Source of the DNA: a virus
Length of the DNA stretch: 23,185 bases
Reading direction: 5' to 3' (one strand)
Virus record (IMG/VR): IMGVR_UViG_3300036719_003541
Coordinates: 1-23,185 of that record
Shown here: positions 6,701 through 23,140 of the stretch, in pieces
Numbering within the stretch: the stretch's first letter is position 1
Layout of the letters: every line of letters starts with the position of its first letter
Position numbers and translations under genes: made by a program
The notes under the pieces: generated by a model
Told to the model about the DNA's origin: nothing
The model's database searches: none
The model's input: only the letters and a program-made list of their open reading frames with translations

Positions 6701-8850
6701 TCTGTTATCTGAGAGGCTGTGTGTGTATGACCACTAATGCTAACTCCGATACCATTAACTAATAATGTAGTAAAGTTTCCACTACTACTAGGAACCCAAT
6801 AGTCTGTAGCAGAATTGTATTGTAAAAATTGACCATTAGTAGCACCACTAACAGCCACATCATGATTATCATTTAAATGACCATAACTTATGGGTCTTAC
6901 AAATATTTTACCATTATTAGCAGCATCAAGAATTATGGCGGCGGAGATACTATGTTTGGGTTCGTTCTTAGTGAGTTTACCCGCTACGGTTGGATGCACA
7001 TACAATATATCTCCATTAGCCCATGTTTCATCGCCCACAGCAATATTGCTAACAACATTTCCACGAGTATCAATATTATTTACATGACCAAAATGAATAA
7101 CGTAACCATTATTATTATCATTTATGTTTTCATAAACCAGCCCCATAAATCTTACTTCTCTGACACTACCATTAGCGGTATATAAGCTTGGCTCTATAAT
7201 ACCATTAGCGTGAACTCCACTAGCCATAACGGCCTGACCTTTGTATAGAACGCCACCTGTCTCGTTTCTAACTCTAAACATTTCATGTTCACCAAGATTT
7301 ATAATAGCAGTATCTGTTAGAGCTATATCAACAGTGCCCTCAGTATCATTCCAAGCCATTTGTCCTTGTAATAGTGTTGGTTCTATATTGGTATTAAAAT
7401 ATAAAACATCTAAATTGCCAGTATTAGCAACAAGATTTCCGCTAATAGCTAATAGAGAACCATTAAACGTAAGATTGGTTTCGGCATTAACGCCAGTTGT
7501 GGTTCCATCACTAGTTAATATCCTATTATCTGCATAATTAGTTATAGACGGAATGCCTCCTTGTATACCTTGAACTCCTTGACTTCCTTGTATGCCATCT
7601 AAGCCCTGACTGCCAATAGTTCCTTGTATACCCTGGATTCCTTGAGTTCCTTGCAGACCCTGGGTTCCTTGAGAACCAATCTGTCCTTGTGCTCCTATAG
7701 TTCCTTGTACTCCTTGTGTTCCTTGAGCACCTTGACTGCCTTGGATACCTGTCTGTCCCTGAATGCCTTGCTCTCCTTGTATTCCCTGTGTTCCTTGAGA
7801 GCCTTGAGATCCAACACTCCCTTGGCTTCCCACAGATCCCTGAGAGCCAGTGGTGCCTTGGATTCCCTGAGTACCCTGATTGCCTACGCTACCTTGAGTT
7901 CCTTGACTTCCTTGGCTTCCAATTGTTCCTTGAGTACCTTGACTACCCTGTAATCCTTGAGAGCCTTGACTACCAGTGTTTCCTTGGCTTCCAGTAACAC
8001 CCTGGATCCCCTGAGTTCCTTGGGTACCTTGAGTACCTTGTGTACCATTAGATCCTTGGGCGCCAGTGTTGCCCTGTATGCCTTGAGTACCCTGAGTTCC
8101 TTGAACACCTTGTATACCCTGATTTCCCTGTATGCCTAATAAGCCCTGAGTGCCTTGATTGCCTTGAACGCCTTGAACGCCTTGTGTTCCTTGAATTCCA
8201 ACAGATCCTTGAGTACCAGTATTGCCCTGAATTCCTTGAGCTCCTTGGATTCCTTGTGTTCCTTGGTTACCAACTAACCCTTGTATGCCTGTAGTTCCTT
8301 GATTTCCTTGAACACCTTGTATTCCCTGGATACCTTGTATGCCAAGAGAGCCTTGTACACCTTGAGTACCTTGTGTTCCTTGGTTTCCTTGTACTCCTTG
8401 AGTTCCTTGGACCCCTTGAATTCCTTGAATTCCTTGAGTTCCTTGAGTCCCCTGGATTCCCTGAGTCCCTTGACGACCTTGAACTCCTTGAGTTCCTTGA
8501 ATACCATAAAATCCTTGTATTCCAGTTGTTCCTTGAGGACCCTGTATGCCTTGTATGCCTTGAGCGCCCGCTCCAGGAGGACCTTGTTGTCCTTCGTTAA
8601 TTGTTACTACAGAATTAGATATTTCCGTAGTAGCAACAGATATTGTTGATGATTCTGTTGGTTGTATAGTAACAACATTAATTTCAGCATCATCTAATGA
8701 TATATTTTGGCTTTCAGAGCCAAGTTCAGAAACAGACACATTATTAGTTGATCCAACACCTTCTGTGACCTCAAGATTATTTGAGTTCGGTTGATCAACA
8801 TTTATGGTGTATGTTTCACCATTAAGCGTTACTATCGTAATAGTGCTCAT
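3748..8850 (-). CDS. Giant tail fibre-like protein, 1700 aa, with collagen-like and YadA-head-like repeats
   Basis: The protein is modular. Residues 1-86 form a Ser/Thr/Asn-rich beta-type head. Residues ~87-431 are an uninterrupted Gly-X-Y collagen-like stretch dominated by G-I-Q, G-T-Q, G-V-Q and G-S-Q triplets. Next comes a region with 'V-R-N-E-T-G-G-V-L-Y-K-G-Q-A-V' seen in many phage fibre proteins, then two copies of a G-H-T-H-T-A-S-Q-I-T-D-F-N-E cassette with R-I-L-T-S-R-D modules. There are two arrays of YadA-like head repeats: an imperfect one (DNA ~5580-5890) and a near-perfect one of 15-residue units S-T-V-G-G-G-x-x-N-T-S-S (DNA ~4465-5030), capped by S-T-V-P-G-G. The last ~250 residues are a beta-rich C-terminal domain. 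All of these elements are trimerising fibre folds, so a long trimeric fibre is expected. The start overlaps the previous stop (TAATG). Confidence 0.85.
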   Translation of the reverse strand: MSTITIVTLNGETYTINVDQPNSNNLEVTEGVGSTNNVSVSELGSESQNISLDDAEINVVTIQPTESSTISVATTEISNSVVTINEGQQGPPGAGAQGIQGIQGPQGTTGIQGFYGIQGTQGVQGRQGTQGIQGTQGTQGIQGIQGVQGTQGVQGNQGTQGTQGVQGSLGIQGIQGIQGVQGNQGTTGIQGLVGNQGTQGIQGAQGIQGNTGTQGSVGIQGTQGVQGVQGNQGTQGLLGIQGNQGIQGVQGTQGTQGIQGNTGAQGSNGTQGTQGTQGTQGIQGVTGSQGNTGSQGSQGLQGSQGTQGTIGSQGSQGTQGSVGNQGTQGIQGTTGSQGSVGSQGSVGSQGSQGTQGIQGEQGIQGQTGIQGSQGAQGTQGVQGTIGAQGQIGSQGTQGLQGTQGIQGIQGTIGSQGLDGIQGSQGVQGIQGGIPSITNYADNRILTSDGTTTGVNAETNLTFNGSLLAISGNLVANTGNLDVLYFNTNIEPTLLQGQMAWNDTEGTVDIALTDTAIINLGEHEMFRVRNETGGVLYKGQAVMASGVHANGIIEPSLYTANGSVREVRFMGLVYENINDNNNGYVIHFGHVNNIDTRGNVVSNIAVGDETWANGDILYVHPTVAGKLTKNEPKHSISAAIILDAANNGKIFVRPISYGHLNDNHDVAVSGATNGQFLQYNSATDYWVPSSSGNFTTLLVNGIGVSISGHTHTASQITDFNEAIDDRIGSGLFVAGTGINLNYNDAGNIFTVSVTGLVNNPTNNRILTSRDNTTTGIDAESNATFDGTTLAVSGVLIVDKVKIDNNVIFAETPTNNKHYLGINVDQLFIDTSEYSAAAGSGGVTIFGTNNPTLIITNETAEDYPTEIKLRSAGGSSNKLIIGSYNTENYNGNGPSANVNEIYSLADYDLSILAESGSLNLNAFNNSVNIGPILNVDNLRIDGNTISSTNTDGNIIITPSGSGALQRDSGGNTRGSYAVDWQTERFNNNQVASGPWSVIGGGTYNRAAGQENVIAGGNSNYTDGLVSVIAGGTTNKALGAYSAVVGGDRNSVSGDYSFIGAGSLNNISGNFSSIIGGEYNNDGGYNNVFILGSNLTGVQPDTTYTQNLIAAGSGKFTNLYVNTTPVSVSGHTHIASQITDFNEAVDDRIGSGLFAAGTGINLNYNDGSNSFAVSVTGLISNPANNRILTSRDSTTTGIDAETNATFDGTTLAVSGAVTVDNLRLDGNTISSTNSNGSIIIQPSGTGALQRDSGGNARGEYAVDWQTVRSSGTMVAGGNYSVIGGGYNNTSSNNYSTVGGGSSNTSSGNKSTVGGGYENTSSGFASTVGGGNSNTSSGYYSTVGGGGSNTSINLYSTVGGGKYNTSSGTYSTVGGGRINTSSNNYSTVGGGLNNTSSGFASTVGGGNGNTSSNNYSTVGGGYDNTSSGNKSTVGGGYQNTASNFYSTVGGGHNNTSSGYYSTVPGGFRAAATKYGELCHAAGRFANNGDAQHTVLLARTSTLSGTFTVSIASPAVFTKSNHNLKAGDTITLSTTGSLPTGLNTTTTYHVISSGISANAFRVSTSAGGSAVNTSGTQSGTHSLTVTSSRLTLNGAIGVTAQELLTLPAETTWTFEIKLSAYNDTDNVAAGWIYRGVIRRNAANSTTLVGSLIEESWKETAMNSASASVVADDTNEALEIRVTGLTSKNIRWVAVVDISQVSYGTP
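4465..5030 (-). repeat. YadA-head-like 45-bp coding repeat array
   Basis: About 12 near-identical 45-bp units coding for the 15-residue pattern S-T-V-G-G-G-x-x-N-T-S-S-x-x-Y. Variation is limited to the two x positions after GGG and the last residues. An older, diverged array of the same type lies at ~5580-5890. Confidence 0.9.
7555..8592 (-). repeat. Collagen-like Gly-X-Y coding repeat
   Basis: About 1 kb of 9-base-periodic sequence (forward strand 'CCTTG' every 9 bases) coding for roughly 115 Gly-X-Y triplets, mostly with Gln in Y. The frame has no interruption. Confidence 0.95.
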
Positions 8851-9904: not shown

Positions 9905-10906
9905 TCAGAGAGAGCCTAGTAGGACACGTCTGTTATCAAGAACAGCAAAGCCCTGTTCTGCCCAGCCATAGAAACCAGCTCTCTTTTGACGATGTAGAGT
10001 ATCGTCTTCGAAAATCTGAACTTCTTGACGAACTGGCATTATGAAACTATCTCTCTTGCGCATATCAAGGCCAACAACTAATTCAACGTCACTAGCGGCT
10101 AATGTGCCATTAAGAACATTGGTATAGAATAGTTGATATTCTTGACTTTCGCCAAGTTCATCAAGATCATGAAGATTCACGCCGAAAACTCTATTAAGTG
10201 TGCCATCAGCAGCAACATAGATTTCTCTACGAGTTACTTCATCAACTTGATCAACACCCCAATTACGAATGTCTTCCATAGCTTCTGGAGAGACATAAAG
10301 ATCAGTTAACATACCACGATTATTACTGGCACTGTTACCGCCGCCATTTCTACGCATAACAGTCTTCATTAGACTTACTAGGCGTTTTGTAAATTGACCA
10401 GCAGCAGCATCGCTATCGAATACTACGATATTACGATCAACACCAGCAGCGAGAAGTGTATGCCAGCCATCGTCATTCATCTTCTTGACGAATTGGGCTT
10501 CCATAACTTCCATAGCACGACCAACAACGTCCCAGCGAGCATCACGAGCATACTTTAAGAGGTAGTCGATTGAAGCGCCGATGTCATAGGTTGGAACCAT
10601 GACATAATCGCCTTCAACGTGACGCTCTGGAATATAACCGTGATTAGGAATTGTGTAAGCCACAAAGTCCTTTTCAGTACCTGGAGCAAGGAAATCTAGT
10701 GGGAATTCTGGAGTAGCACTTTGGGCAAGTGTGATTGGCTCAAAGATGCCGTCTAGAATATCGCCATTTAGAATGCCTTGACGAAGTGGAAGTTCTAGAG
10801 CTTTTGCAAATTCTGCATTAGCACCTAGTGCCTCTTCTTTATTTAATGAGCCAGAACGAACTAGAAGATCGGTAAGTTCTGGTGTTGGTTCAAAAGCCTT
10901 AGTCAT
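9905..10906 (-). CDS. Major capsid protein, HK97-fold type, 333 aa
   Basis: It has the usual size and position for a capsid protein: after protease/scaffold and a small head protein, and before a strong terminator. Features resembling HK97-type capsids are an N-terminal arm, a P-E-F-P-L-D-F-L region, a long helix-rich 'spine' (about residues 105-145: S-I-D-Y-L-L-K-Y-A-R-D-A-R-W-D-V-V), a middle domain ending in Y-V-S-P-E-A-M-E-D-I, and a beta-rich C-terminal part (about 245-333). I recognise the general sequence from uncultured freshwater and marine phages, though without a named group. AAGGGAG SD close to the start, almost identical to that of the gene upstream. Codon use and GC are slightly higher than in neighbouring genes, consistent with high expression. 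Confidence 0.85.
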   Translation of the reverse strand: MTKAFEPTPELTDLLVRSGSLNKEEALGANAEFAKALELPLRQGILNGDILDGIFEPITLAQSATPEFPLDFLAPGTEKDFVAYTIPNHGYIPERHVEGDYVMVPTYDIGASIDYLLKYARDARWDVVGRAMEVMEAQFVKKMNDDGWHTLLAAGVDRNIVVFDSDAAAGQFTKRLVSLMKTVMRRNGGGNSASNNRGMLTDLYVSPEAMEDIRNWGVDQVDEVTRREIYVAADGTLNRVFGVNLHDLDELGESQEYQLFYTNVLNGTLAASDVELVVGLDMRKRDSFIMPVRQEVQIFEDDTLHRQKRAGFYGWAEQGFAVLDNRRVLLGSL

Positions 10907-10924
10907 ATTTTTTTTCTCCCTTAA

Positions 10925-11380
10925 TTAAGCGATGTTTACGGATACTTTGGCATAACCATCGGTGTCCTTACTACTTAAGAACGAACCGATCTGAACAGCA
11001 TTTGTACTACTTGTACCAATTAGACCACTAGCACCAACATATGCTGGAGTACCCGCTGTTGGAGTAATGCCAGATACGAGACGGTTTGTTGTTACCTGAC
11101 CATTGCGTAATAGTGTTACTTTACCACCAACTTGCACTTCATCTTTGTGCCAGTTAATGTGTTGTCTTGTAAGATCAAGATTAACAACATCATTTAGTAA
11201 AACGCCTAATGGTTTAGCGCCAGAAGCAGCAGCAGCATAAGCTACTACAGCACTAGCGTCGTCCATTGAAACGCCTGAACCACTTGTTACTGCACTAACA
11301 ACACCGCCTCTTTCAGCAGTTGTTGTCATGAAGAAAGAGATATCAGTTAAAAGTTCGATACGATCTGATTTAAGAGCCAT
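10925..11380 (-). CDS. Small head protein, probable capsid decoration/cement protein, 151 aa
   Basis: A small Ala/Ser/Gly/Val-rich, beta-type protein encoded between the scaffold and the major capsid protein, the standard place for head decoration proteins. Visible features are 'A-K-P-L-G-V-L-L-N-D-V-V-N-L-D' and 'V-G-G-K-V-T-L-L-R-N-G-Q-V-T-T', typical of a beta-tulip-like decoration fold where K-P-x-G-V-L is common. No enzyme motif. The leader TAAGGGAGAA mirrors the one before the capsid gene, suggesting matched high translation. Role is inferred from position plus general composition. Confidence 0.6.
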   Translation of the reverse strand: MALKSDRIELLTDISFFMTTTAERGGVVSAVTSGSGVSMDDASAVVAYAAAASGAKPLGVLLNDVVNLDLTRQHINWHKDEVQVGGKVTLLRNGQVTTNRLVSGITPTAGTPAYVGASGLIGTSSTNAVQIGSFLSSKDTDGYAKVSVNIA

Positions 11381-11384
11381 ATTA

Positions 11385-12056
11385 TTATTCTCCCTTATTA
11401 AGTTTTTTACCTAGTCTAGCGCATACAAAATCAACTAATGCAGCACGGGTGGTGTTAACACTTTCTTGGGTGTCGCTACCAGCACTGAGATCAAGATCAT
11501 CATTTGGTTCTACGTTATCAAGAATTTCCTCAACTTCTGTTTCAGAAGCTTTTGGTTTTTTGACTTCTGGCATTTTAACCTTTTTAGCCGCATTACTGAC
11601 TAGTTCTACCATAGCATCAAAAGCAACGTCTTCTAAGGATTCAAATTGATCAACGGCTGACGAAGCAACTTCTTGATCTAGACCTTTTTCGAGTAAAGAA
11701 GCCATTCTTTTCATTTTCTTTTCTTTCTTCATCATCTCTTCTTCTTTACCCTTGTAAGCAGCAATCGCCTCTAGAGCAGAATCGAGTTCCGATTTGGCCT
11801 TCTTCATTTCTTCTTCTTTTTTCATCATTTCTTCTTCGCTCATCTTTTTAGCGGCTTCTGTTTGAGCAACTAATTCGTCGATTGAAGATTTTGTATTTAC
11901 TAACTCAGTGGACTTGGTTTCAAGTTCTGATTGTAAAGAAGCTACTGTTTCTTTTAGCTCAATAATTTGAGCATAAGCTTCCTTGGTAGCTGAGGCGCAG
12001 TCTGTCATGGCCTCTACCTTTTCTTTTAATTCTGCTACTTCTTTTTCTAAACTCAT
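11385..12056 (-). CDS. Nested scaffold protein from internal start (223 aa, same frame as the protease gene)
   Basis: The ATG at 12056-12054 (M-S-L-E-K-E-V-A-E-L) starts exactly where the coiled-coil scaffold begins and is preceded by GGAGG at 12069-12065 with an 8-base spacer. This is as good an SD as any in the operon. A separately translated scaffold nested in frame inside the protease gene is the arrangement of lambda C/Nu3. The sequence shows the start signal directly; that the product is made is inference. Confidence 0.5.
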   Translation of the reverse strand: MSLEKEVAELKEKVEAMTDCASATKEAYAQIIELKETVASLQSELETKSTELVNTKSSIDELVAQTEAAKKMSEEEMMKKEEEMKKAKSELDSALEAIAAYKGKEEEMMKKEKKMKRMASLLEKGLDQEVASSAVDQFESLEDVAFDAMVELVSNAAKKVKMPEVKKPKASETEVEEILDNVEPNDDLDLSAGSDTQESVNTTRAALVDFVCARLGKKLNKGE

Positions 12057-12872
12057 ATTATTAGCCTCCATAGGATTTGTACTCTTTTCTGATACACCCG
12101 AAAAACTTTTTTCGCTATTTTTTGTTGTTGATAAACTGGTAAAATTTTCCTTGTTAAATATTATACTATCCGGATTGGCTGGTTTGTCAACATAGCCTTT
12201 ACCAGAAAAAGTAATATTTCTCAATACTCTACCTATATTATGGTTTTCATATTTACCACTTCCACCATATGCTCTAAGATGTTTTGTTAAAAATGATGTC
12301 TCATCAGATCTAGATAATATCTTATATTCTCCAGTAGCCTCATTAATTAATCCATAATCAAAACCCTTAAACATACATTCCATACTAACATATTTTGTTC
12401 CGTTTTCAATTTCAGCTATTAATTTAGCTGTTCTATTTTTTAATTCTGGATTTGTATATGCTTTGTAAATTACTGAGCCTGTGACAATATGAAATCGATC
12501 TGGTAAATTATCCACATCGGTATTATTGTCTATAAGTATTCCGTCATCTGTAATTGACCAATTAGAAACAATATGGCCTATAATAGTGTTTTCATCATGT
12601 TCTAAATTTGTTGGTTTGTCCTCTGGAGTATCTTTAGCTGCCCAAACTTCTTCTTTGGGAAAAATATCGTCATTTTTATTCCAAGAAGATGTAACTAAAA
12701 TAGATTGAACATAATAAAGATCTTCATCATTATAAGAAGCTAATGCTTTAATGTTTTTATTAAATATTTTTTTATTATCTGCTGGCTCAACTATAGATGC
12801 TATACTAATTAGTGGAGTGGCCAAAATTAGGTCTTCTAGATCGTCTTGTTTTTCTTGAGCGTATATAATCAT
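11385..12872 (-). CDS. Prohead protease with C-terminal scaffold domain, 495 aa
   Basis: The N-terminal half (about residues 40-230) looks like a phage prohead serine protease. It has 'N-L-E-H-D-E-N-T-I-I-G-H-I' with a candidate catalytic His near 94 or 102, and 'T-K-Y-V-S-M-E-C-M-F' with a candidate Ser about 70 residues later. A linker (about 245-272) follows. The remainder is a highly charged coiled coil (about 275-400, with repeated E-E-M-M-K-K-E) and an acidic tail, the hallmark of a scaffold. In phages of this kind the protease digests the scaffold during head maturation. The gene is 12 bases downstream of the portal gene. An internal Met at 12056 with a perfect SD suggests that the scaffold is also made separately. 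The catalytic residues are proposals from spacing. Confidence 0.75.
   Translation of the reverse strand: MIIYAQEKQDDLEDLILATPLISIASIVEPADNKKIFNKNIKALASYNDEDLYYVQSILVTSSWNKNDDIFPKEEVWAAKDTPEDKPTNLEHDENTIIGHIVSNWSITDDGILIDNNTDVDNLPDRFHIVTGSVIYKAYTNPELKNRTAKLIAEIENGTKYVSMECMFKGFDYGLINEATGEYKILSRSDETSFLTKHLRAYGGSGKYENHNIGRVLRNITFSGKGYVDKPANPDSIIFNKENFTSLSTTKNSEKSFSGVSEKSTNPMEANNMSLEKEVAELKEKVEAMTDCASATKEAYAQIIELKETVASLQSELETKSTELVNTKSSIDELVAQTEAAKKMSEEEMMKKEEEMKKAKSELDSALEAIAAYKGKEEEMMKKEKKMKRMASLLEKGLDQEVASSAVDQFESLEDVAFDAMVELVSNAAKKVKMPEVKKPKASETEVEEILDNVEPNDDLDLSAGSDTQESVNTTRAALVDFVCARLGKKLNKGE
12065..12069 (-). promoter_or_regulatory. Internal Shine-Dalgarno for nested scaffold
   Basis: GGAGG on the minus strand, 8 bases before the in-frame ATG at 12056. 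It lies inside the codons Met-Glu-Ala of the protease reading frame. It is the feature that decides the nested start. Confidence 0.6.
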
Positions 12873-12884
12873 ATTTTTGTCTCT

Positions 12885-15086
12885 TTAGTTGTGTAGATTT
12901 TCATACACCATAGAATAGAAATAAGATTTAACCTGTTTTAGTTCGTTAACAGTCAATTCTCTGGCAAAAGACTTTTTAATATTGGTAAGAAAATAAGAAT
13001 ATTGATCAAAAATTTTATTGACATTATTATTGTTAATAGTCGCAAAACTTTTTTGTATAAAGTCTTGATCTATCTTATCGAAAGGTGATGCAGAAAAGAG
13101 GATTTTAGATCGTGTTTCTTCGGCCTCTAAATATTGAATGCTAGATAAACTTCTCATATTTTTCTTTTTATAAAAATCTAATAGAATTGGATTTATAATT
13201 TCAGAAATGTTATCTTGTGCGCTATCTGCCCATAACTGAAGTGTGGCTCCGGTTTGTGGGGAAAATTTCTTTTCTTTTCTCTTTGAAGAATCTTTTAAGT
13301 TTTTGGGCCTTCCTTGTCCTGGCACTCCTTTTAAAGATTCTGGCGAATCTTTAACGCTAGTTGGTTGGCCAAAGGGAGCGGCTGGTATTTTCATTTCCAA
13401 AACAGTTTTTTCTCCAGATTTTTTCTTTTCCAACTCAAGACCAACTTGACTCGGAGTAGCAAGACCTATTTGCAAAGCAATTTTTTTCATTGCTTCTTCA
13501 AACATAGGATCATACCAAGGACCGGCTTTGGGAACCATCCTATTTGTATCTCTTTCTCTATTTTCTCTATTAAGTCTAATTTTTTCCATTTCAGAATCAA
13601 ATCCAAATCTGGATTGAATAAGTTCATCACTAATAATATTACGATCTGCTAATTGAATTAATAGTGCTTTTTCTGCATCTTCGTTACTTAGATCCATTCT
13701 ATCAAACTCTAATCTAGCTGAGTATTTAAAACCCATAGCTTTTTGTACTAACTCAAATTCTTTCTCCCAAAAAGAGATCAAAGTATCTCTGCCATACTGA
13801 AGTCTTTGAGTAAGTGTTTTCAGGCTTATGAAATTATTTGTTGTGCCAGCAGCACCGAATGTTCCTGTTAAGGTTGGAGGAATGCCAAGACCAGCATAAA
13901 CACTATTCATATGCGGAATGTATTTATTTTCCCCTAAAAATTGATGTACGTTAGTTTGGGATTCTAAAAGCTCGATATCTGGACCCCAAACAAGATCTAA
14001 AGTTCCTCCACCAACATTATTTTGTAAAATATTTGATAGTTTACTTGCTGCTGCTTTTGTTGGAGCAATTTTATGTTCGAGATTACCAAGTTTAAAAATT
14101 CTAATATTTGATATTGCTCCGTCTAGCGCGGCCATATCTGCTAATTTAAGCTTTTCTATAACTGTAATATCATCCATAATGCTATAGATCATAGGAAATG
14201 CCCAACTCTGCCAATCATCTTTTTTATAATGAAATACAAGAGTTTTTTGTGGGTCTAAAGGATACGGTTTTTTAGTTTTTGCTGCTTCTACAATTTGTGA
14301 TGGTAATCCAGCAATTATAGCTTTTTCATTATCTGTTTTTGGTGATGTTATAATTTTTCTTAATCCAACTGGGATAGAAAGCTCGTATCTTTTTTGACCA
14401 ACAAAAGATGCTAAAGGACCAGCAGCCACATTAACATAAACTGGATCTATAAAAGTATATCTCCAAGGTATCTCTCTTTTCTCTACGTCTACATTGAGAG
14501 AGTCTTGTTCTGTAGTATCTGCTGCCGCTGTTGCTCTAAAGAATTCATCAGCAGTTTTTAAACTAATTTTTGCTGTTTGTCTATTAATTACTACGTTTGC
14601 TACTCTATAAATATTATTTAAGAATCTTTCGCTTCTCTCTTTACCATTAATTTTCTTAAACCATTTTCTATAAAATCTTTCTATTCTTTTATTTTTATGA
14701 ACTGGTTTAATACCCTGAACAGCAAAGTCTGCCATAAGATCAATAACATTCTTTACAAGACCAACCCTTTGATAAACATCATCTGCTCTACGAATAATCT
14801 GTTTTATTTCTGTTGGAACAGCTTCGTCTGGACGAAAATAATCATATCCTCGTCTAGTTAATCCTGGTTTACCGCTTATATCTCCGGGTAAAAGATTAGA
14901 ATAATCATTGCTACGATAGTTAAATCCAGCGTTAGCTTTGAAAAGACCGTATTCATCTAAGCATCCTGCTGTTTGTTTGAGAGCGTCTTGTTTGCTTTTT
15001 AAGTCATCCCCCCAAGTAACATATGCTTCAGAATCGGCTAAAACAGCATCTTGAATAGCTTCGCTTTTTGGATATTTTTTGGCCAT
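12885..15086 (-). CDS. Portal protein, 733 aa
   Basis: The large protein between the terminase and the protease, in the invariant portal position. The early region has 'Y-D-Y-F-R-P' and 'I-R-R-A-D-D-V-Y-Q-R-V-G-L-V-K-N-V-I-D-L-M' and the middle has 'H-M-N-S-V-Y-A-G-L-G-I-P-P-T-L-T-G-T-F-G'. The latter is like the clip/stem region of portals, where a P-P-x-L-x-G pattern is common. It is followed by a long helical segment with 'R-N-I-I-S-D-E-L-I-Q-S-R-F-G'. The portal forms the dodecameric DNA channel of the head and docks the terminase. It is at the long end of the family because of a Lys/Ser-rich C-terminal extension of ~150 residues (from about G-Q-G-R-P-K). Family assignment from position, size and these segments. 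Confidence 0.8.
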   Translation of the reverse strand: MAKKYPKSEAIQDAVLADSEAYVTWGDDLKSKQDALKQTAGCLDEYGLFKANAGFNYRSNDYSNLLPGDISGKPGLTRRGYDYFRPDEAVPTEIKQIIRRADDVYQRVGLVKNVIDLMADFAVQGIKPVHKNKRIERFYRKWFKKINGKERSERFLNNIYRVANVVINRQTAKISLKTADEFFRATAAADTTEQDSLNVDVEKREIPWRYTFIDPVYVNVAAGPLASFVGQKRYELSIPVGLRKIITSPKTDNEKAIIAGLPSQIVEAAKTKKPYPLDPQKTLVFHYKKDDWQSWAFPMIYSIMDDITVIEKLKLADMAALDGAISNIRIFKLGNLEHKIAPTKAAASKLSNILQNNVGGGTLDLVWGPDIELLESQTNVHQFLGENKYIPHMNSVYAGLGIPPTLTGTFGAAGTTNNFISLKTLTQRLQYGRDTLISFWEKEFELVQKAMGFKYSARLEFDRMDLSNEDAEKALLIQLADRNIISDELIQSRFGFDSEMEKIRLNRENRERDTNRMVPKAGPWYDPMFEEAMKKIALQIGLATPSQVGLELEKKKSGEKTVLEMKIPAAPFGQPTSVKDSPESLKGVPGQGRPKNLKDSSKRKEKKFSPQTGATLQLWADSAQDNISEIINPILLDFYKKKNMRSLSSIQYLEAEETRSKILFSASPFDKIDQDFIQKSFATINNNNVNKIFDQYSYFLTNIKKSFARELTVNELKQVKSYFYSMVYENLHN

Positions 15087-17863: not shown

Positions 17864-18677
17864 GTTTCATTACTGATTCTGGAGTTAAAAATGGGGTATC
17901 TAATTTGCCGTCTTGATATTGGTGATAACTCATAAGGTTGTCTTTGGCTTTGTTTGTCGCCAAGCGAATAATTTCCATTTCGCGTCCCTCTTTTTCTCTA
18001 ACATCTTCGTCTTCTAGCATTCTTATTAAACCAACCCAACTACTTTTACCATCTTCGATTCTTTTGATACGTTGTTCTCGTGTGGCTTTTAAATCTTTAC
18101 TAATTTTTTGTTGTTCGCCAAGTAATTTAGTATATTCATTTGTATAATTTGCTATACTATTTCGTGCGAAACTTAATTGGGTTTCTAAATTTGCTAATCG
18201 TGGAACATCTCTTTGATCATCGGGCTTGTCGTATTCTGCATCTACCAGACGTTGTAATTTTTCGGTTTCGCTAATATGACGCTTACGCTCTTTCATACTT
18301 CTATTGATAAGAATATCTATAGTGATAAATTGTTTGATCTGTAATTCTTCAGCAGGAAGAACGTCCTCTCTGAACTGCTTCAATAAATTAATCCAAACAT
18401 TCTCAAAGTATTCTAGTTCACCACTCTCTTCGTCAAATTGCTTTTTAATTTCGTGCCAGAATGTTTTTCCGTATAGTTTTTGTTTGAGCAGATCATCTTC
18501 TGCTGCTTGGTCTCCTGATAAGAGATTCTTAGTTTCGCTAATATATCTTTTAATGGGGGCAACATTGCGATTTAATTGTTCGGCAATAGTTTCTACTGTT
18601 AAAGTTTGTAGATTATCTCGTATGAATTTTTCTTCTTCGAGACTAAGTTGGCCACGTTTTTTAGGAATCGATGTCAT
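17853..18677 (-). CDS. Probable terminase small subunit, 274 aa
   Basis: The N-terminal ~45 residues form a helix-turn-helix-like segment (L-S-L-E-E-E-K-F-I-R ... T-I-A-E-Q-L-N-R-N-V-A-P-I-K-R-Y-I), a pattern used by small terminases to recognise packaging DNA. The rest is long and highly helical, with coiled-coil character around 150-215. It lies directly upstream of HNH, ERCC4 and terL and overlaps its neighbours at both ends. It is longer than most small terminases (usually 150-200). A separate transcription regulator is the alternative, but the order favours packaging. No enzymatic motif. Confidence 0.6.
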   Translation of the reverse strand: MTSIPKKRGQLSLEEEKFIRDNLQTLTVETIAEQLNRNVAPIKRYISETKNLLSGDQAAEDDLLKQKLYGKTFWHEIKKQFDEESGELEYFENVWINLLKQFREDVLPAEELQIKQFITIDILINRSMKERKRHISETEKLQRLVDAEYDKPDDQRDVPRLANLETQLSFARNSIANYTNEYTKLLGEQQKISKDLKATREQRIKRIEDGKSSWVGLIRMLEDEDVREKEGREMEIIRLATNKAKDNLMSYHQYQDGKLDTPFLTPESVMKHEQ

Positions 18678-19299
18678 GATCTTTTAATATTTGTTTAATC
18701 TCTTTAATAAGTTTATTTATTTCGGTTTTGGGGACTTTGCTGTTTCCTAATAGTTTGAGAAATATGGGGCGATTTTTAACACTAATATTTTCATCTATTA
18801 TTTTGATGATTTCCTTATTGCTAATATTTTTGAGCAGATTGTCATTCGTTATCTCTTTGCTATTTTCACTTATGTTATCTATGGTCACGGGCTTCATAAT
18901 ATTCTTTTTGCTTTCGTTTCTTTTGGTCCAAGAAGAATATAAAGAACATTCAGCTTTGTCTGTGAATTCGGAACATTGGCTAGAGCAAGACGAGTCCTTT
19001 CCCTTAAAAAAGGGGCAAGTTAAGCAAGGTTTATCGGGCCTTTGATAGTTATCTCTTTTATAATTAAAAAGTCTATTACGAACGTGGGTCCAAAGGAAAT
19101 TTTCTAGGGGGCGACTTTTATCGTAATTTTTAAGTCCTTCCAATGCGAATATTGCGGCTTGTTGCTTCATATCTTCGTGACTGTGATATCCAAACTTAAA
19201 TTTATAACCAAGTTTTTTACTAATTTTTTCCCAAACAGCAACAAATTCAGCTTCTTTCACTGTTGGGTGAAACTGGCTTTTCTTGGTTTTCTTTGTCAT
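18661..19299 (-). CDS. Sigma-70 region 2-like protein with Cys-rich insertion, 212 aa
   Basis: Residues ~38-85 resemble sigma factor region 2: H-S-H-E-D-M-K-Q-Q-A-A-I-F-A-L-E-G-L (helix facing the polymerase) then 'F-L-W-T-H-V-R-N-R-L-F-N-Y-K-R' (the -10 recognition helix). A five-cysteine segment follows (about 92-118: P-C-L-T-C-P-F-F, S-S-C-S-S-Q-C, A-E-C), probably a zinc-binding insertion. The C-terminal part is Lys/Ile/Asn-rich and may hold a degenerate region 4 (S-K-V-P-K-T-E-I-N-K-L-I). Similar proteins occur in uncultured phages and are related in outline to T4 gp55. Near the front of the late operon it would direct late transcription (inference). It overlaps the small-terminase candidate by 17 bases. 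Confidence 0.7.
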   Translation of the reverse strand: MTKKTKKSQFHPTVKEAEFVAVWEKISKKLGYKFKFGYHSHEDMKQQAAIFALEGLKNYDKSRPLENFLWTHVRNRLFNYKRDNYQRPDKPCLTCPFFKGKDSSCSSQCSEFTDKAECSLYSSWTKRNESKKNIMKPVTIDNISENSKEITNDNLLKNISNKEIIKIIDENISVKNRPIFLKLLGNSKVPKTEINKLIKEIKQILKDHDIDS

Positions 19300-19504: not shown

Positions 19505-19723
19505 ATGTCAAAAACATACAAAAAGTGGACTAAAGAAGAGATGGATTTTGTGGCCAATAACAGTAAAAACATGAAGGACGAAGAAATTGCTACCTATTTG
19601 AACAAGATTGATGGGTCAAGAGTTATTACTGTGGGCATGGTAAGACGTCAAAGGCGTAAGATGAGTATCTCGAAGCCAAGGGGTCGTAGGCCATCTGTTG
19701 CTAAGATTGAAAACGCAACCTGA
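19505..19723 (+). CDS. Small helix-turn-helix DNA-binding protein, 72 aa
   Basis: A basic protein starting with K-K-W-T-K-E-E-M-D-F-V (SANT/Myb-like first helix) and D-E-E-I-A-T-Y-L (second helix), then V-R-R-Q-R-R-K (recognition helix and basic stretch) and a basic tail R-G-R-R-P. The layout resembles the N-terminus of the small-terminase candidate but is a separate gene. AGGAG SD with an 8-base spacer. It sits alone on the right of the divergent promoter with its own terminator, so it is a good candidate for a regulator of that promoter or of the early/late switch (inference). Confidence 0.7.
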   Translation: MSKTYKKWTKEEMDFVANNSKNMKDEEIATYLNKIDGSRVITVGMVRRQRRKMSISKPRGRRPSVAKIENAT

Positions 19724-19782: not shown

Positions 19783-20235
19783 TAATGTGGGGATTAAGGC
19801 TATTAAACTGGCTAATTAGATATGGGTTGCTTACTATGTTTATACCACCGCCGGGTTTTGGGGGTTCAACCCCCCATTGGAGGGAAAACAGAAAAACCCC
19901 CCTATTGGGGAATAGGCTACATACCCCCCAACGGTAGGGTAACCTCGAGCAAATCCCATGCCAAACCGATAGAGCGACGAAACTTTCACCAACCCCACCA
20001 ACGGGGGAGATATTGAATCGGCCAGATTCGATTTTGCCAAGGTGTCCATTGGGCGTAACTCCAATACTGGTAAGGGTTTAGGGAAAATCTGAAAATCGGA
20101 TTTGACCGTTTCGCATAAAATGGAACGTCGAAAGAAAGAATCTAAAAACTCACAAGATTCTAACTTGCGACTGCCGAAGATAGAGAGTAGACTTCGGGCA
20201 TGATGATGGAAACCCAAACCCAAAAGGCTAATAAG
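19783..20235 (+). other. Gene-free stretch of ~450 bases with GC hairpins and a sigma-54-like site
   Basis: No convincing coding region is seen. The first ~75 bases are ordinary AT-rich sequence. From 19860 to 20007 there is a run of C-tract/G-tract hairpins with short loops: GGGGG-TTCAA-CCCCC at 19860-19874, CCCCCC-TATT-GGGG at 19897-19910, ACCC...GGGT at 19923-19940, CCCC-ACCAAC-GGGGG at 19993-20007. A minus-strand TGGCATGGGATTTGC (19949-19963) matches the sigma-54 consensus. At 20173-20197 CCGAAG and CTTCGG form an inverted repeat around the candidate -10. Composition is clearly more GC-rich than the left part of the window. Confidence 0.6.
20165..20193 (+). promoter_or_regulatory. Candidate promoter of first right-arm gene
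   Basis: TTGCGA (20165-20170), 17 bases, TAGACT (20188-20193). The -10 lies inside an inverted repeat CCGAAG/CTTCGG, which could act as an operator. A start there would give a ~38-base leader to the ATG at 20236 but almost none to the ATGs at 20200-20206, which favours the later start. Confidence 0.35.
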
Positions 20236-20852: not shown

Positions 20853-20867
20853 CCCCCGTAAGGGGGG
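20853..20867 (+). terminator. GC hairpin downstream of the Cys-rich gene
   Basis: CCCCC-GTAAG-GGGGG forms a tight stem without a proper T-run (GTTGAC follows). It may be a weak or factor-dependent terminator or a transcript-stabilising hairpin. A second C/G pairing, CCCCC...GGG, lies at 20822-20838. Confidence 0.4.
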
Positions 20868-20871
20868 TTGA

Positions 20872-20915
20872 CTGCCAAAATGGCAGAAATCCCGCGGTTT
20901 CTGCCAAAATGGCAG
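20872..20915. repeat. Tandem palindrome element, copy 1
   Basis: Two identical CTGCCAAAATGGCAG palindromes (20872-20886 and 20901-20915) with a 14-base spacer containing CCGCGG. It is the first of three copies, all upstream of right-arm promoters. Centre-to-centre distance is 29 bases. The symmetry points to a pair of dimer-binding sites. Confidence 0.9.
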
Positions 20916-20920
20916 GCACT

Positions 20921-20935
20921 GCAAATCCTGTGCCA
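20921..20935 (-). promoter_or_regulatory. Sigma-54-like -24/-12 sequence, minus strand (copy 1)
   Basis: TGGCACAGGATTTGC read on the minus strand fits TGGCAC-N5-TTGC exactly. It starts 5 bases beyond the second palindrome and points back into it. Whether it is a promoter or part of an operator cannot be told from sequence. Confidence 0.45.
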
Positions 20936-20953
20936 AACTCTATAAAAAATATT

Positions 20954-20968
20954 TGGCATGATATTTGC
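20954..20968 (+). promoter_or_regulatory. Sigma-54-like -24/-12 sequence, plus strand
   Basis: TGGCATGATATTTGC matches TGGCAY-N5-TTGC and points to the 21066 gene, with the palindromes 40-80 bases upstream. It is the only plus-strand site in this arm; the corresponding places in the other two modules are degenerate. Confidence 0.4.
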
Positions 20969-21004
20969 TCTCACAAAAAAACTTTTTCCTAACACAATCC
21001 TAAC

Positions 21005-21032
21005 TTGAATCCTAAAGTTCGATCTGTATAAT
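21005..21032 (+). promoter_or_regulatory. Sigma-70-type promoter of the 21066 gene
   Basis: TTGAAT, 16-base spacer, TATAAT (21027-21032). The start codon is 33 bases beyond the -10 with an AGGAG SD between. Confidence 0.8.
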
Positions 21033-21065
21033 GTCGATATAAGAAGTAACCCAGGAGAACAGAAG

Positions 21066-21311
21066 ATGACCAAGTTCGGAAGCGTCAAGGTTGGATACGG
21101 TTTCGAGTGTGAGAAGAATAACGGCAAGACGTATGCGGGTGAGATCGTCAAGGTTGCCGCATACGCTCGCGGTACACTGGTCACGATTCGATACCCTGAT
21201 CGTCTCGAAAATGATCGTATGTATAGTGTGGGTGAGATGTCGATGATCCACAAGAGCATCTACCTTGAAGATTGCAAGGTTTGGTTCACCGAGGAGCCAT
21301 CCCTCGTGTGA
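21066..21311 (+). CDS. Unknown small protein, 81 aa, paralogue of the protein at 20236
   Basis: A beta-rich protein sharing the pattern G-Y-G-F, Y-A-G-E-I-V-K-V, A-R-G-T-L-V-T-I-R-Y and S-I-Y-L-E-D with the 79-aa protein upstream. Its SH3/KOW-like alternation suggests a small nucleic-acid- or protein-binding fold, but no named family is recognised. AGGAG SD 8 bases before the ATG and a strong promoter 33 bases upstream. It is the first gene after the first tandem palindrome module, probably highly expressed early. Confidence 0.75.
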   Translation: MTKFGSVKVGYGFECEKNNGKTYAGEIVKVAAYARGTLVTIRYPDRLENDRMYSVGEMSMIHKSIYLEDCKVWFTEEPSLV

Positions 21312-21376
21312 GGGGGTTGTGCAGCATAGAAAAGTTTGGTACATTCCGTTTTTCACTTCACCATAGGAAAAGAATC

Positions 21377-21697
21377 ATGAGTTTCCCGATCATCGAAAAT
21401 GCCAAGCGTCAAGCCTACCTGTGCTTCGTGGGATTGGCGATCCCTTGCGACAAGCGTACCGTAGACGGCGGAACGATTCGCAGTGAGAAGGTTCTGAAGT
21501 TCAATCGGTCTGCTATGCGGGATAGCGTCAACGTCAAGGCCGAAAAGGTTGACCCCCGCATGGGTAGGGGTGAGGATACGATGATCGTCAAGGTTGGCAA
21601 GCCCGGTAGTCGGGAGAGGGTGGAGGCTTTGCGGTCGCAGTACGAGGCTACCCTCACTATGGGGGAGGAGATTAGCCCCTTCGCTTGGGAGGGGTGA
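21377..21697 (+). CDS. Unknown protein, 106 aa
   Basis: The start at 21377 (M-S-F-P-I-I-E-N-A-K) is chosen because AGGAAA stands 6 bases before it. The frame is open 105 bases further upstream, but that stretch overlaps the previous gene and lacks an SD. The product is Lys/Arg-rich with 'A-Y-L-C-F-V-G-L-A-I-P' and 'R-S-E-K-V-L-K-F-N-R', beta-type in the middle and helical at the C-terminus (R-E-R-V-E-A-L-R-S-Q-Y). No family recognised. It has no promoter of its own in the 65-base gap and is probably co-transcribed with the 21066 gene. Confidence 0.6.
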   Translation: MSFPIIENAKRQAYLCFVGLAIPCDKRTVDGGTIRSEKVLKFNRSAMRDSVNVKAEKVDPRMGRGEDTMIVKVGKPGSRERVEALRSQYEATLTMGEEISPFAWEG

Positions 21698-21737
21698 CCC
21701 ACCCACAAGAGGGGATCTGTCAAGTTGGCAGCCTCGA

Positions 21738-21781
21738 CTGCCAAAATGGCAGAAACCGCGGCCTTTCTGCCAAAATGGCAG
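21738..21781. repeat. Tandem palindrome element, copy 2
   Basis: CTGCCAAAATGGCAG at 21738-21752 and 21767-21781, 14-base spacer with CCGCGG. A further half-site TTGGCAG at 21725-21731 pairs with the first CTGCCAA to form a larger inverted repeat. Same length as the other copies. Confidence 0.9.
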
Positions 21782-21787
21782 GCACAA

Positions 21788-21802
21788 GCAAATACCGTGC
21801 CA
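21788..21802 (-). promoter_or_regulatory. Sigma-54-like -24/-12 sequence, minus strand (copy 2)
   Basis: TGGCACGGTATTTGC on the minus strand is a full match to TGGCACG-N4-TTGC, 6 bases beyond the second palindrome. Confidence 0.45.
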
Positions 21803-21835
21803 AACAACAAAATATTATTTTTGGTATTTTTATGG

Positions 21836-21863
21836 TTGACATTCAAGGTATGGCTGGTAGAAT
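21836..21863 (+). promoter_or_regulatory. Sigma-70-type promoter of the 21894 gene
   Basis: TTGACA, 16-base spacer, TAGAAT (21858-21863); the start codon is 30 bases further. The -35 is consensus. Confidence 0.85.
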
Positions 21864-21893
21864 ACCGATATACCTAGCAGAGAGGAAAAGAAA

Positions 21894-22109
21894 ATGATCG
21901 ACAACAAAATCAAAGATGCGTTGGTTCAGATTTGGGGAAGCGAAAGCCATAACGTCCAGTTTATCGGTTTGGCCGATGGTAAACTTTACGCCGAGTGTGC
22001 AGAAACTCTCCAGTGTAAGCGTCTTACCGATCTCAACTATCGGAACGTGCTGAACGATATGTTCTACGATTACTGCGTGGAAAAGGCCGCTTGGATGGGG
22101 ATTTCGTAG
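21894..22109 (+). CDS. Unknown protein, 71 aa
   Basis: A small acidic-neutral protein beginning M-I-D-N-K-I-K-D-A-L-V-Q-I-W, with a beta-hairpin-like 'V-Q-F-I-G-L-A-D-G-K-L-Y-A-E-C' and a helical C-terminus rich in Tyr. Two Cys lie at about 35 and 41, one more at 64; no clear metal motif. GAGAGGAAAAG SD. First gene after the second module; a GC hairpin lies directly behind its stop codon. No family recognised. Confidence 0.65.
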   Translation: MIDNKIKDALVQIWGSESHNVQFIGLADGKLYAECAETLQCKRLTDLNYRNVLNDMFYDYCVEKAAWMGIS

Positions 22110-22110
22110 T

Positions 22111-22126
22111 CCCCCTGTTGTGGGGG
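22111..22126 (+). terminator. GC hairpin directly after the 21894 gene
   Basis: CCCCC-TGTTGT-GGGGG begins one base after the stop codon. A short T-containing tail (TTGATTTGTCTT) follows. Probable weak terminator. Confidence 0.45.
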
Positions 22127-22139
22127 TTGATTTGTCTTA

Positions 22140-22154
22140 TCCGATCCTATCGGA
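22140..22154. promoter_or_regulatory. Inverted repeat TCCGAT-CCT-ATCGGA
   Basis: A 6-bp perfect inverted repeat with a 3-base centre, 15-29 bases upstream of a TATAGT word at 22169. Its position suits an operator at the promoter of the next small genes, but no -35 is visible. Confidence 0.3.
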
Positions 22155-22192
22155 TTGGCAAGGTGGGCTATAGTCAGCGAAAGTGAGGGAAC

Positions 22193-22279
22193 ATGGAAAT
22201 CCTTATTAGTTTGGTATTGACAGGATGGATTGCTGGTAGTATGATTCTTAGTATGATTTGGTTGCTTTCACTGGAGTAG
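22193..22279 (+). CDS. Tiny membrane protein, 28 aa
   Basis: ATG 22193, stop TAG 22277-22279, with GTGAGGGA upstream. The product is one hydrophobic segment (I-L-I-S-L-V-L-T-G-W-I-A-G and on) with no charged core, i.e. a single membrane helix. It is followed after 4 bases by the next gene. Such mini-proteins may affect the host membrane or lysis timing (inference). Short, so less certain. Confidence 0.45.
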   Translation: MEILISLVLTGWIAGSMILSMIWLLSLE

Positions 22280-22283
22280 AAAA

Positions 22284-22499
22284 ATGGATTACCAGAAAAC
22301 CTATAAGTTTGATAATGGTTACGGGGCTAGTGTGGTTTGTAACTTTGGAACCTATGGGGCCAAAGATGGTCTTTTCGAGGTTGCTGTGCTTGACAGTAAC
22401 GGAGAGATTGCATACAATACGCCCATCACTAATGATGTTATTGGTTGGCTTGACTTTGCGGACGTTGCGGATATTCTGAATAAGATTAAGGCTCTGTAA
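22284..22499 (+). CDS. Conserved phage hypothetical protein, 71 aa
   Basis: Begins M-D-Y-Q-K-T-Y-K-F-D-N-G-Y-G-A-S-V-V, then 'L-F-E-V-A-V-L-D-S-N-G-E' and 'V-I-G-W-L-D-F-A-D-V-A-D-I-L'. I recognise this as a small protein recurring in many unrelated phages, with no known role. The start has only a short gap of four A after the previous stop, so translation is probably coupled to the 28-aa gene. Soluble, alpha/beta. Confidence 0.75.
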   Translation: MDYQKTYKFDNGYGASVVCNFGTYGAKDGLFEVAVLDSNGEIAYNTPITNDVIGWLDFADVADILNKIKAL

Positions 22500-22514
22500 T
22501 CTAAGGAAAATAAA

Positions 22515-22817
22515 ATGAACTACGCCGAAGCGGTATCTATGGTGCATGGGAAGACCAATCGTAAAGAACGGAAGATTGGTAATAATACATACGCCGAAAT
22601 CGGATATGATGATAGCGTTTCCATTCGGTTGCATGGTACAGCGGTTGTAAGGTTTTATCCTAACGGGCTGGTGAAGTTGAATAGTGGCGGATGGCGAACC
22701 AGTACCACAAAGGATAGGATTAACAAGTATTCTCCTGTTAAAGTTTACCAGCGAAAGTATGAATGGTATTTGCAGGATGGTACAGAGTTTGAAGATAATA
22801 TTCTGGTTAACTCTTAA
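22515..22817 (+). CDS. Conserved phage hypothetical protein, 100 aa
   Basis: The centre reads 'V-S-I-R-L-H-G-T-A-V-V-R-F' and 'L-N-S-G-G-W-R-T-S-T-T-K-D-R-I-N-K-Y', a signature of a protein family common in environmental and actinobacterial phages and of unknown function. Beta-rich, basic, no Cys. SD AAGGAAAA about 6 bases before the ATG. It lies in the same small operon as its neighbours. The exact biochemical role is not known. Confidence 0.8.
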   Translation: MNYAEAVSMVHGKTNRKERKIGNNTYAEIGYDDSVSIRLHGTAVVRFYPNGLVKLNSGGWRTSTTKDRINKYSPVKVYQRKYEWYLQDGTEFEDNILVNS

Positions 22818-22832
22818 AGAAAGGGGCTAGGG

Positions 22833-22940
22833 ATGGCCGATTTAAACTGGGTACAGATTGGTGTGGGATTTCTTTGCGGTGTTATTGCTAGTTACTTTGT
22901 TTGTGATCTTGTTTTTCCAATAAGGAAGCATGATGAATAA
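22833..22940 (+). CDS. Tiny membrane protein, 35 aa
   Basis: ATG 22833, TAA 22938-22940. One hydrophobic helix (V-G-F-L-C-G-V-I-A-S-Y-F-V-C) flanked by a charged tail P-I-R-K-H-D-E, consistent with N-out/C-in by the positive-inside rule. AAAGGGGCTAGGG stands before it. Overlaps the next tiny gene by 8 bases. Confidence 0.45.
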   Translation: MADLNWVQIGVGFLCGVIASYFVCDLVFPIRKHDE

Positions 22941-23007
22941 AAGTGATTATATTATTTTGACCGGATCTTTTATCCTGGGTTGCCTCACAGTTTACCTAAT
23001 CCACTAA
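22933..23007 (+). CDS. Tiny membrane protein, 24 aa
   Basis: ATG 22933 (or in-frame ATG at 22930), TAA 23005-23007, with AAGGA upstream inside the previous gene. One hydrophobic helix (I-I-L-T-G-S-F-I-L-G-C-L-T-V-Y-L-I). Very short, so uncertain, but the SD and overlap speak for it. Confidence 0.35.
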   Translation: MNKSDYIILTGSFILGCLTVYLIH

Positions 23008-23017
23008 ATCTAACGGG

Positions 23018-23061
23018 CTGCCAAAACGGCAGTTTCCGCGGCCGATCTGCCAAAATGGCAG
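23018..23061. repeat. Tandem palindrome element, copy 3
   Basis: CTGCCAAAACGGCAG (23018-23032, one base altered in the centre) and CTGCCAAAATGGCAG (23047-23061), 14-base spacer with CCGCGG. The spacer length is conserved although its bases differ from the other copies. Confidence 0.9.
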
Positions 23062-23065
23062 GCTA

Positions 23066-23080
23066 GCAAACGGTGTGCCA
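23066..23080 (-). promoter_or_regulatory. Sigma-54-like -24/-12 sequence, minus strand (copy 3)
   Basis: TGGCACACCGTTTGC on the minus strand fits TGGCAC-N5-TTGC, 4 bases beyond the second palindrome. Confidence 0.45.
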
Positions 23081-23112: not shown

Positions 23113-23140
23113 TTGACAAGCCGATATCTAACTGTAGAAT
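23113..23140 (+). promoter_or_regulatory. Sigma-70-type promoter of the gene at the right edge
   Basis: TTGACA, 16-base spacer, TAGAAT (23135-23140), 29 bases before the ATG at 23170. Confidence 0.85.

Follow-up and report, generated by a model that had tools for sequence, protein, structure and literature searches.

What acts at three double-palindrome elements upstream of the rightward promoters of a large phage was the question raised by the DNA analysed here. The window, that is, the whole stretch of 23,185 nt from virus record IMGVR_UViG_3300036719_003541, was identical to positions 116655-139839 of the 159,255-base phage record G001. Each element, termed a type-1 array below, consisted of two 15-bp palindromes in a 44-base pattern. 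Tentatively, and at a little short of even confidence, the three copies are taken as upstream control arrays of an early regulon that would be bound by a probably host-encoded factor.

Geometry of the arrays and their link to promoters

All three window copies had the exact form CTGCCAAAANGGCAG-N14-CTGCCAAAANGGCAG, with two 15-mers per copy reading CTGCCAAAA(T/C)GGCAG, at precisely the positions assigned to them in the initial annotation (Table 1). The palindrome CTGCCANNNTGGCAG was found 7 times in the window at ≤2 mismatches, against 0.52 expected and a maximum of 3 in 100 shuffles. The strict 44-base pattern occurred three times in the G001 record, the reversed-pattern control giving zero. 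Looser matching yielded 252 distinct oriented type-1 arrays, in which the spacing from palindrome to neighbour was 29 bp in 235 pairs (next commonest spacing, 11 pairs). The description of two palindromes with a 14-base gap containing CCGCGG applied in the window; as a rule for the 252 arrays CCGCGG did not hold, the spacer being simply G/C-rich, with its seven central positions (18-24) ∼90-100% G or C, a central CG favoured and the individual bases variable.

The palindromes were asymmetric, with an AAA loop on the strand of transcription, and of the 9 variable stem pairs 7 were more variable in the right half and 2 in the left. Stem changes were one-sided in 212 cases (28 keeping a GU pair) and compensated in 5, arrays having been picked at ≤3 mismatches, which limited compensated pairs though they were still possible. 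Since the changes were nearly all one-sided, conservation did not follow an RNA or cruciform stem, and the near absence of compensation together with the helical promoter spacing given below indicates a DNA-bound protein and not an RNA hairpin. The fixed geometry is consistent with cooperating bound proteins, as had been proposed from the window.

Each window copy was followed by a sigma-70-like promoter, as previously annotated, all three with 16-bp spacers. In the family, 196 of the 241 type-1 arrays with enough flank had a scored promoter downstream, on the AAA-strand side and no more than 150 bp away (shuffled sequence, 7-15); leftward on the other side promoters were scored in 18 of the 241, and upstream on the same strand in 11. 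The order after a type-1 array was an optional element named E2, A/T-rich tracts, TTGACA, a 16-bp spacer often with CCGATA, and TAGAAT or TATAAT, a conserved AT starting at the seventh base past the -10. Promoter logos omitted the 52 of 252 arrays without a scored promoter, and a redundancy filter kept 157 of the remaining 200. The promoter spacer was 16 bp in 133 of the 157 type-1 promoters and 17 bp in 55 of the 80 promoters of a second array type (type 2, described below), the scoring itself favouring 17.

Distances from array to -35 clustered near 3, 13, 24 and 36 bp for type 1 and near 35, 45, 57 and 79 bp for type 2, where only identical 60-bp arrays were removed as related. At a period of ∼11 bp the vector strength R was 0.74 for type-1 distances ≤40 bp (n = 90) and 0.75 for type-2 distances ≤85 bp (n = 59), with none of 3000 jittered sets as high in either case. 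Counting each distance once, 20 of 3000 (type 1) and 5 of 3000 (type 2) jittered sets were as high. The sites thus lay upstream of the -35 on a preferred helical face, as at class I activator or UP-element promoters (for type 1 only to 40 bp), and we read the phasing as that of a bound protein which would have to face RNA polymerase. A constant distance of 36-39 bp from the last TGCCA-like site to the -35 was set aside, being partly built in by a pattern that spans both elements.

At the rrnB P1 promoter of E. coli, an UP element and a strong sigma-70 promoter are preceded by serial Fis sites at intervals of ∼30 bp. The serial-site layout is alike, with a different site sequence, a phage setting and type switching here. 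The array system may work in the manner of an operator regulon or of an UP promoter activated from upstream. The early promoters of T4, a large phage too, are strong, of UP/-35/-10 form and used by host polymerase; the excerpts of that source mention no upstream protein-binding array (PMC2988021). No paper on these array motifs was evident among the matches listed from the open-licence PMC literature.

The strict array was present in 74 stretches of IMG/VR DNA on 53 contigs (own count) of up to 224 kb, from samples that, going by their IMG numbers, are probably mostly freshwater. Seven large records, related by 90-151 open reading frames (ORFs) in common with G001 at a mean amino-acid identity of 51.5-67.0%, had 17-37 palindromes each (≤1 mismatch), mostly paired at 29 bp and gathered in one region. 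The region of G004 crossed contig ends, one stray palindrome of G006 lay outside its region, and the region of G001 had a G+C content of 43-44% against a genome mean of 35%. In these seven records 84 of the 90 arrays lay outside same-strand ORFs of ≥50 codons with ATG and Shine-Dalgarno sequence, and 6 inside. The motif was therefore neither scattered at random, nor for the most part intragenic, nor detached from promoters, and elements that are linked to promoters and gathered in one region of the genome match the regulon first suggested from the window. We presume the regulon to be early, given where it lies, the kind of promoter and the small, variable genes.

A second array type and switching between types

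Viral DNA was scanned utilizing as pattern the RRQRRK helix of the predicted helix-turn-helix (HTH) protein encoded at 19505 in the window; 316 stretches encoded a relative, and the best 80 of these 316 were kept. Type-1 palindromes were lacking in many of the kept relatives. In L209 (HTH protein 85% identical), TAAGnnCTTA sites round a GC-rich core occupied the corresponding places, with 11 copies in 10 kb. These type-2 sites had rigid spacings of 15, 38 and 53 bp and formed symmetric quartets (15/38/15). Counted on both strands there were 174 type-2 arrays (∼87), of which 80 had a scored promoter and 166 had each outer site at ≤3 mismatches in 8, a threshold that by our own arithmetic passes ∼3% of random sequence. 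The core was 68% GC, against 39% further downstream.

Typing was performed on the 51 loci with more than 2 kb downstream of the HTH gene. Thirteen were type 1 (≥4 type-1 palindromes, zero TAAGnnCTTA), five of which (L204-L208) carried an identical HTH gene and were near-copies of the window's phage; 16 were type 2 (≥3 TAAGnnCTTA, ≤2 type-1-like matches); 22 reached neither threshold. The two types were never found together, both thresholds being passed by 0 of the 51, and the type-1-like strays in type-2 loci formed no 29-bp pair in any of the five loci having them, all of which were inspected. Typing was weak for G025 and L257, type 2 by two sites only (G025 without a full array), and for L220, L222 and L225, type 1 by one double each.

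At orthologous promoters the array was swapped, with gene and promoter (TTGAC...TAGAAT or CCGATA) kept, in three of the six families displayed. Identities to G001 in the type-2 records G020, G021 and G024 were 91, 91 and 65% for a 234-amino acid (aa) gene, 81, 75 and 74% for a 363-aa gene, and 71, 71 and 64% for a 99-aa gene, which in G002 had no visible array. In the remaining three families the 230 bp shown were mostly without an array. DNA identity up to the HTH gene was 84-87% for G005 and L270, with 25 versus 0 type-1 palindromes in the compared stretches, and 80% for L209 and G001, with 0 versus 20 in 10 kb; past the HTH gene the early genes of both pairs aligned in patches only.

Switching was repeated. 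On a three-gene tree of 34 tips, several near-identical pairs included, at least 7 type changes were needed, against a shuffled mean of 11.6. Type also follows ancestry, since so low a count arose in only 5 of 1000 shuffles. The tree was built on flanking genes, and therefore part of the switches could have come about by exchange of the array region as a whole; a gene inside the array region also mixed between types. Shared-gene identity to G001 failed to separate the types: of 76 families 3, including an ORF that overlies the motif, had a positive gap. The phages thus seem to change the whole set of promoter switches together, and with the element set switching and the genes staying, whichever side encodes the factor, evolution of the set can be tested through the pairs G001/L209 and G005/L270.

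Two further repeats were seen. In L212 a possible third array type was formed from TGTAGCAAAATGC-like repeats at ∼10800-12900. Among the matches listed, a CCTTACGATATTGTAAGG-like palindrome often stood between array and -35 in type-2 phages (L263, L246, L236).

Candidate factors and competing explanations

In the reading preferred here, the elements would control the rightward transcription units of the phage, presumably early ones, from upstream. A DNA-binding protein would occupy the two palindromes of an array, 29 bp from each other, as a pair of adjacent dimers on a preferred helix face relative to RNA polymerase; after the array come an A/T-rich, UP-like stretch and TTGACA-N16-TAGAAT. At the commonest distance the palindrome centres would fall at about -66 and -95, counted from the inferred start; the window copies stand further up, with E2 between. 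The protein would most likely be an activator, repression being the alternative. Within a phage the arrays are of one specificity type, relatives having TAAGnnCTTA at orthologous promoters, and the factor would probably be host-encoded, array type thus following the host. With somewhat less confidence again, it is suggested that at about a dozen promoters, presumed to be early, the phages read a transcription factor of the host, and that on a change of host the full array set (CTGCCAAAATGGCAG pairs versus TAAGnnCTTA quartets) would be replaced, genes and core promoters being kept, such that array type marks host adaptation. Were the factor host-encoded, one could read from the arrays in a genome to which host regulator, and hence to which host, these uncultured phages have adapted.

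The HTH protein at 19505 had been put forward as a binder of the palindromes. Three helices were predicted (predicted local distance difference test score 81), with the RRQRRK helix and an RGR(P/R) tail, and in the six type-1 records with the gene it adjoined the array region on the upstream side. A fold search with the protein gave no significant match, the best being a small-terminase HTH at E 1.4. The proposal was not borne out: relatives with a different array have the protein, that of L209 with the same RRQRRK helix, the HTH-sharing relatives having themselves been found with this helix as search pattern. As determinant of array type it was rejected, being common to both types; it may serve E2, which is also common to both. 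The other DNA-binding candidates, a 274-aa D5-like protein and a sigma-like protein, were likewise common to both types.

Gene content was compared with array type in 7 type-1 and 5 type-2 records. Linkage to type 1 was defined as presence in G001, G002, G004 and G006 and in no type-2 record, or in ≥6 type-1 and ≤1 type-2 records. The linked genes were small proteins and ORFs that overlie the motif; 11 of the small proteins were scanned without a DNA-binding Pfam or PHROG match. One type-1 filter was passed by six ORFs, five overlying the motif and one a 53-aa hydrophobic peptide also in G025. A 135-aa early family was rejected as type-linked, its discriminating columns falling from 14 (11 records) to 1 (22 sequences). 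No phage regulator tracking the site type was found among the 7 type-1 and 5 type-2 records, G025 being weakly typed. Because no recognisable phage DNA-binding gene was found to track the type, a host factor is placed first and a missed or allelic phage regulator second; a mimic of a host operator, raised with the first description of the elements, leads by exclusion only.

Several results weigh against the preferred reading. No binding factor emerged from the comparisons, and the contigs compared were mostly fragments. A phage regulator of very small size could have been missed, as could an allelic change in a protein common to both types. Beside the 135-aa family, five shared families exceeded all 60 label permutations in type-discriminating columns (IMPDH-like 42190; 24151; 45129 with its relative G004_114038; 41685; G002_155473), the Pfam matches of the four scanned being IMPDH, a deoxyribosyltransferase-like domain below cut-off and, for two, none. 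In addition, 24 ORFs were present in ≥4 of 5 type-2 and ≤1 of 7 type-1 records. Ten of the type-2-linked ORFs were scanned; three matched a glycosyltransferase or rhamnan-synthesis domain and two a methyltransferase domain, one of the latter also matching a PHROG named DNA methyltransferase, and the remainder gave nothing above the Pfam cut-off. Such glycan and methyltransferase genes could possibly reflect host-surface adaptation.

On the host side, the double pattern with free loops gave zero matches in the GTDB collection (84,980 species), a scan to which single host sites are invisible, and a GTDB scan for palindrome plus promoter gave 19 matches with no plausible host regulon. Close cultured relatives were not found by terminase, capsid, polymerase or rIIA, and no host was assigned; the best cultured terminase relative was 26% identical and the nearest ribonucleotide reductase 48%. 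The phage DNA collection gave no match. Phasing over all type-1 distances rested on the 20-27 bp group and was not robust beyond 40 bp, and the window copies, at 51-89 bp from their promoters with E2 between, fell outside the phased range.

Next in probability, though on balance unlikely, is that the arrays are operators of a phage-encoded repressor for early shut-off or superinfection immunity, with two or more immunity types. The nearest described parallel is the stoperators of Cluster A mycobacteriophages (L5, Bxb1), which comprise many similar sites per genome, mostly in one orientation, in motif groups that differ among relatives (PMC6550527). Many near-identical sites oriented with transcription were likewise found here (17-37 per record), gathered in one region, with the types apart and repeatedly switched, as heteroimmunity would have it. 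The cognate repressor is phage-encoded in Cluster A, whereas no type-tracking regulator was found here, the 11 small proteins gave no DNA-binding match and the conserved HTH protein is common to both types; the sites differ also in being fixed-spacing double palindromes just upstream of promoters. Should the factor be phage-encoded, the arrays would amount to something like an immunity system, in which large phages switch about a dozen operators in concert.

It is improbable that the arrays are mobile promoter cassettes in which recombination and early-gene shuffling come first, regulation is secondary and the types are homogenised repeat families. The promoter early stem-loop (PeSL) cassettes of T4-like phages are a repeated promoter-linked element between shuffled early genes (PMC4503421), and such a repeat is present here, with flanking genes kept where the array differs and early genes shuffled among relatives. 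Compared with PeSL as described there, however, no conserved RNA stem was found, the arrays being like protein sites and in interchangeable types. Recombination needs neither rigid spacing with variable spacer bases, nor helical phase at short distance, nor a similar layout in two unrelated sequence types.

A sigma-54 system, with the palindromes as enhancer sites and E2 as the -24/-12 promoter, is very improbable. The family form of E2 was AGCAAAT-N3-GTGCCAAA. Its spacing was rigid, GCAA to TGCCA starting 10 bp apart in 87 cases against ≤17 for each of the other distances between -30 and +30, in a scan that required GCAA and TGCCA only. The sigma-54 consensus is TGGCAC-N5-TTGC, which E2 resembles (logo TTTGGCAYRANATTTGCT), and the palindrome centre CCAAAATGG is as in NtrC sites. 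The GG and GC of the logo, however, are at 100% because they were required when it was built. E2 was optional and mostly faced away from the gene (118 versus 33 raw matches), it occurred with both array types, and a forward variant in type-2 phages, TTTGGCAC..ATTAT, had no -12 GC. An RpoN, sigma-54 activator or HTH_8 gene was absent from 11 of 11 phage records, and therefore the host would have to supply them. The promoter reading of E2 was lowered on these grounds, and the likeness is kept as a lead only.

RNA hairpins (terminators or processing signals) or single-stranded hairpin promoters of N4 type are hardly credible: each palindrome could fold as a 6-bp stem with a 3-nt loop, and this was rejected for lack of compensatory change and since the array stands upstream of a sigma-70-type promoter.

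Feature coordinates and minor observations

Table 1. Positions of the arrays, promoters and associated features, in window numbering unless a locus is named
Feature	Coordinates	Strand	Remarks
Type-1 array copy 1	20872..20915	+	two 15-bp palindromes, centres 29 bp apart, GC-rich spacer
Type-1 array copy 2	21738..21781	+	palindrome pair read from sequence
Type-1 array copy 3	23018..23061	+	one palindrome with T to C
Extra degenerate palindrome CTGTCAAGTTGGCAG	21717..21731	+	seventh in window; starts 21 bp ahead of copy 2
Promoter 1, TTGAAT-N16-TATAAT	21005..21032	+	TTGAAT at 21005, TATAAT at 21027; 89 bases past array
Promoter 2, TTGACA-N16-TAGAAT	21836..21863	+	TTGACA at 21836, TAGAAT at 21858; 54 bases past array
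Promoter 3, TTGACA-N16-TAGAAT	23113..23140	+	CCGATA in spacer; TTGACA at 23113, TAGAAT at 23135; 51 bases past array
E2 GCAAATCCTGTGCCAAA	20921..20937	-	reads TTTGGCAC-N5-TTTGC-like on - strand
E2, forward, TTGGCATGATATTTGC	20953..20968	+	read from sequence
E2 GCAAATACCGTGCCAAA	21788..21804	-	read from sequence
E2, degenerate, GCAAACGGTGTGCCA	23066..23080	-	read from sequence
E2, further copy	19949-19965		TTTGGCAC-N5-TTTGC-like
72-aa predicted three-helix protein	19505..19723	+	RGR(R/P) AT-hook-like tail; adjoins array region upstream; candidate regulator
81-aa ORF downstream of copy 1	21066..21311	+	no Pfam match
71-aa ORF downstream of copy 2	21894..22109	+	homologues in 3/7 type-1 and 2/5 type-2 records
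Glycosyltransferase/rhamnan-synthesis and methyltransferase-like genes	L284 11965-15758; L283 14733-15287; L302 6659-7237; L290 8466-9251		mostly type-2

Terminator-like hairpins of a C-run and a G-run (CCCCC..GGGGG) lay within 60 bp upstream of 24 of the 252 arrays, for example at 20853-20867 in the window. Among the matches listed, a recurrent element of the approximate form CTAATCCTACGGATTTGGC..GTGG..TAGTCAGCGAAA preceded other promoters of the region with both array types, a somewhat different copy lying at 22130-22185 in the window. Eight tRNA genes were located within or beside the array region (G001 141726-152389, L123).

Two groups of bacterial sites among the 19 GTDB palindrome-plus-promoter matches were judged unrelated to the arrays: those of Paludibacteraceae, and four of Phycisphaerae or Planctomycetota (L186, L187, L196, L199), with one site per genome and palindromes 30 bp apart. 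The latter site preceded a UbiA-like gene in L186 and L199, the two loci with ORFs listed.

Beside the D5-like protein, the window ORF at 18661-19299 (-) resembled sigma-70 region 2 weakly, short of the Pfam cut-off, and is a possible phage sigma factor. A 1700-aa ORF at 3748-8850 (-) contained many 9-base and 45-base repeat units and possibly encodes a collagen-like tail protein.

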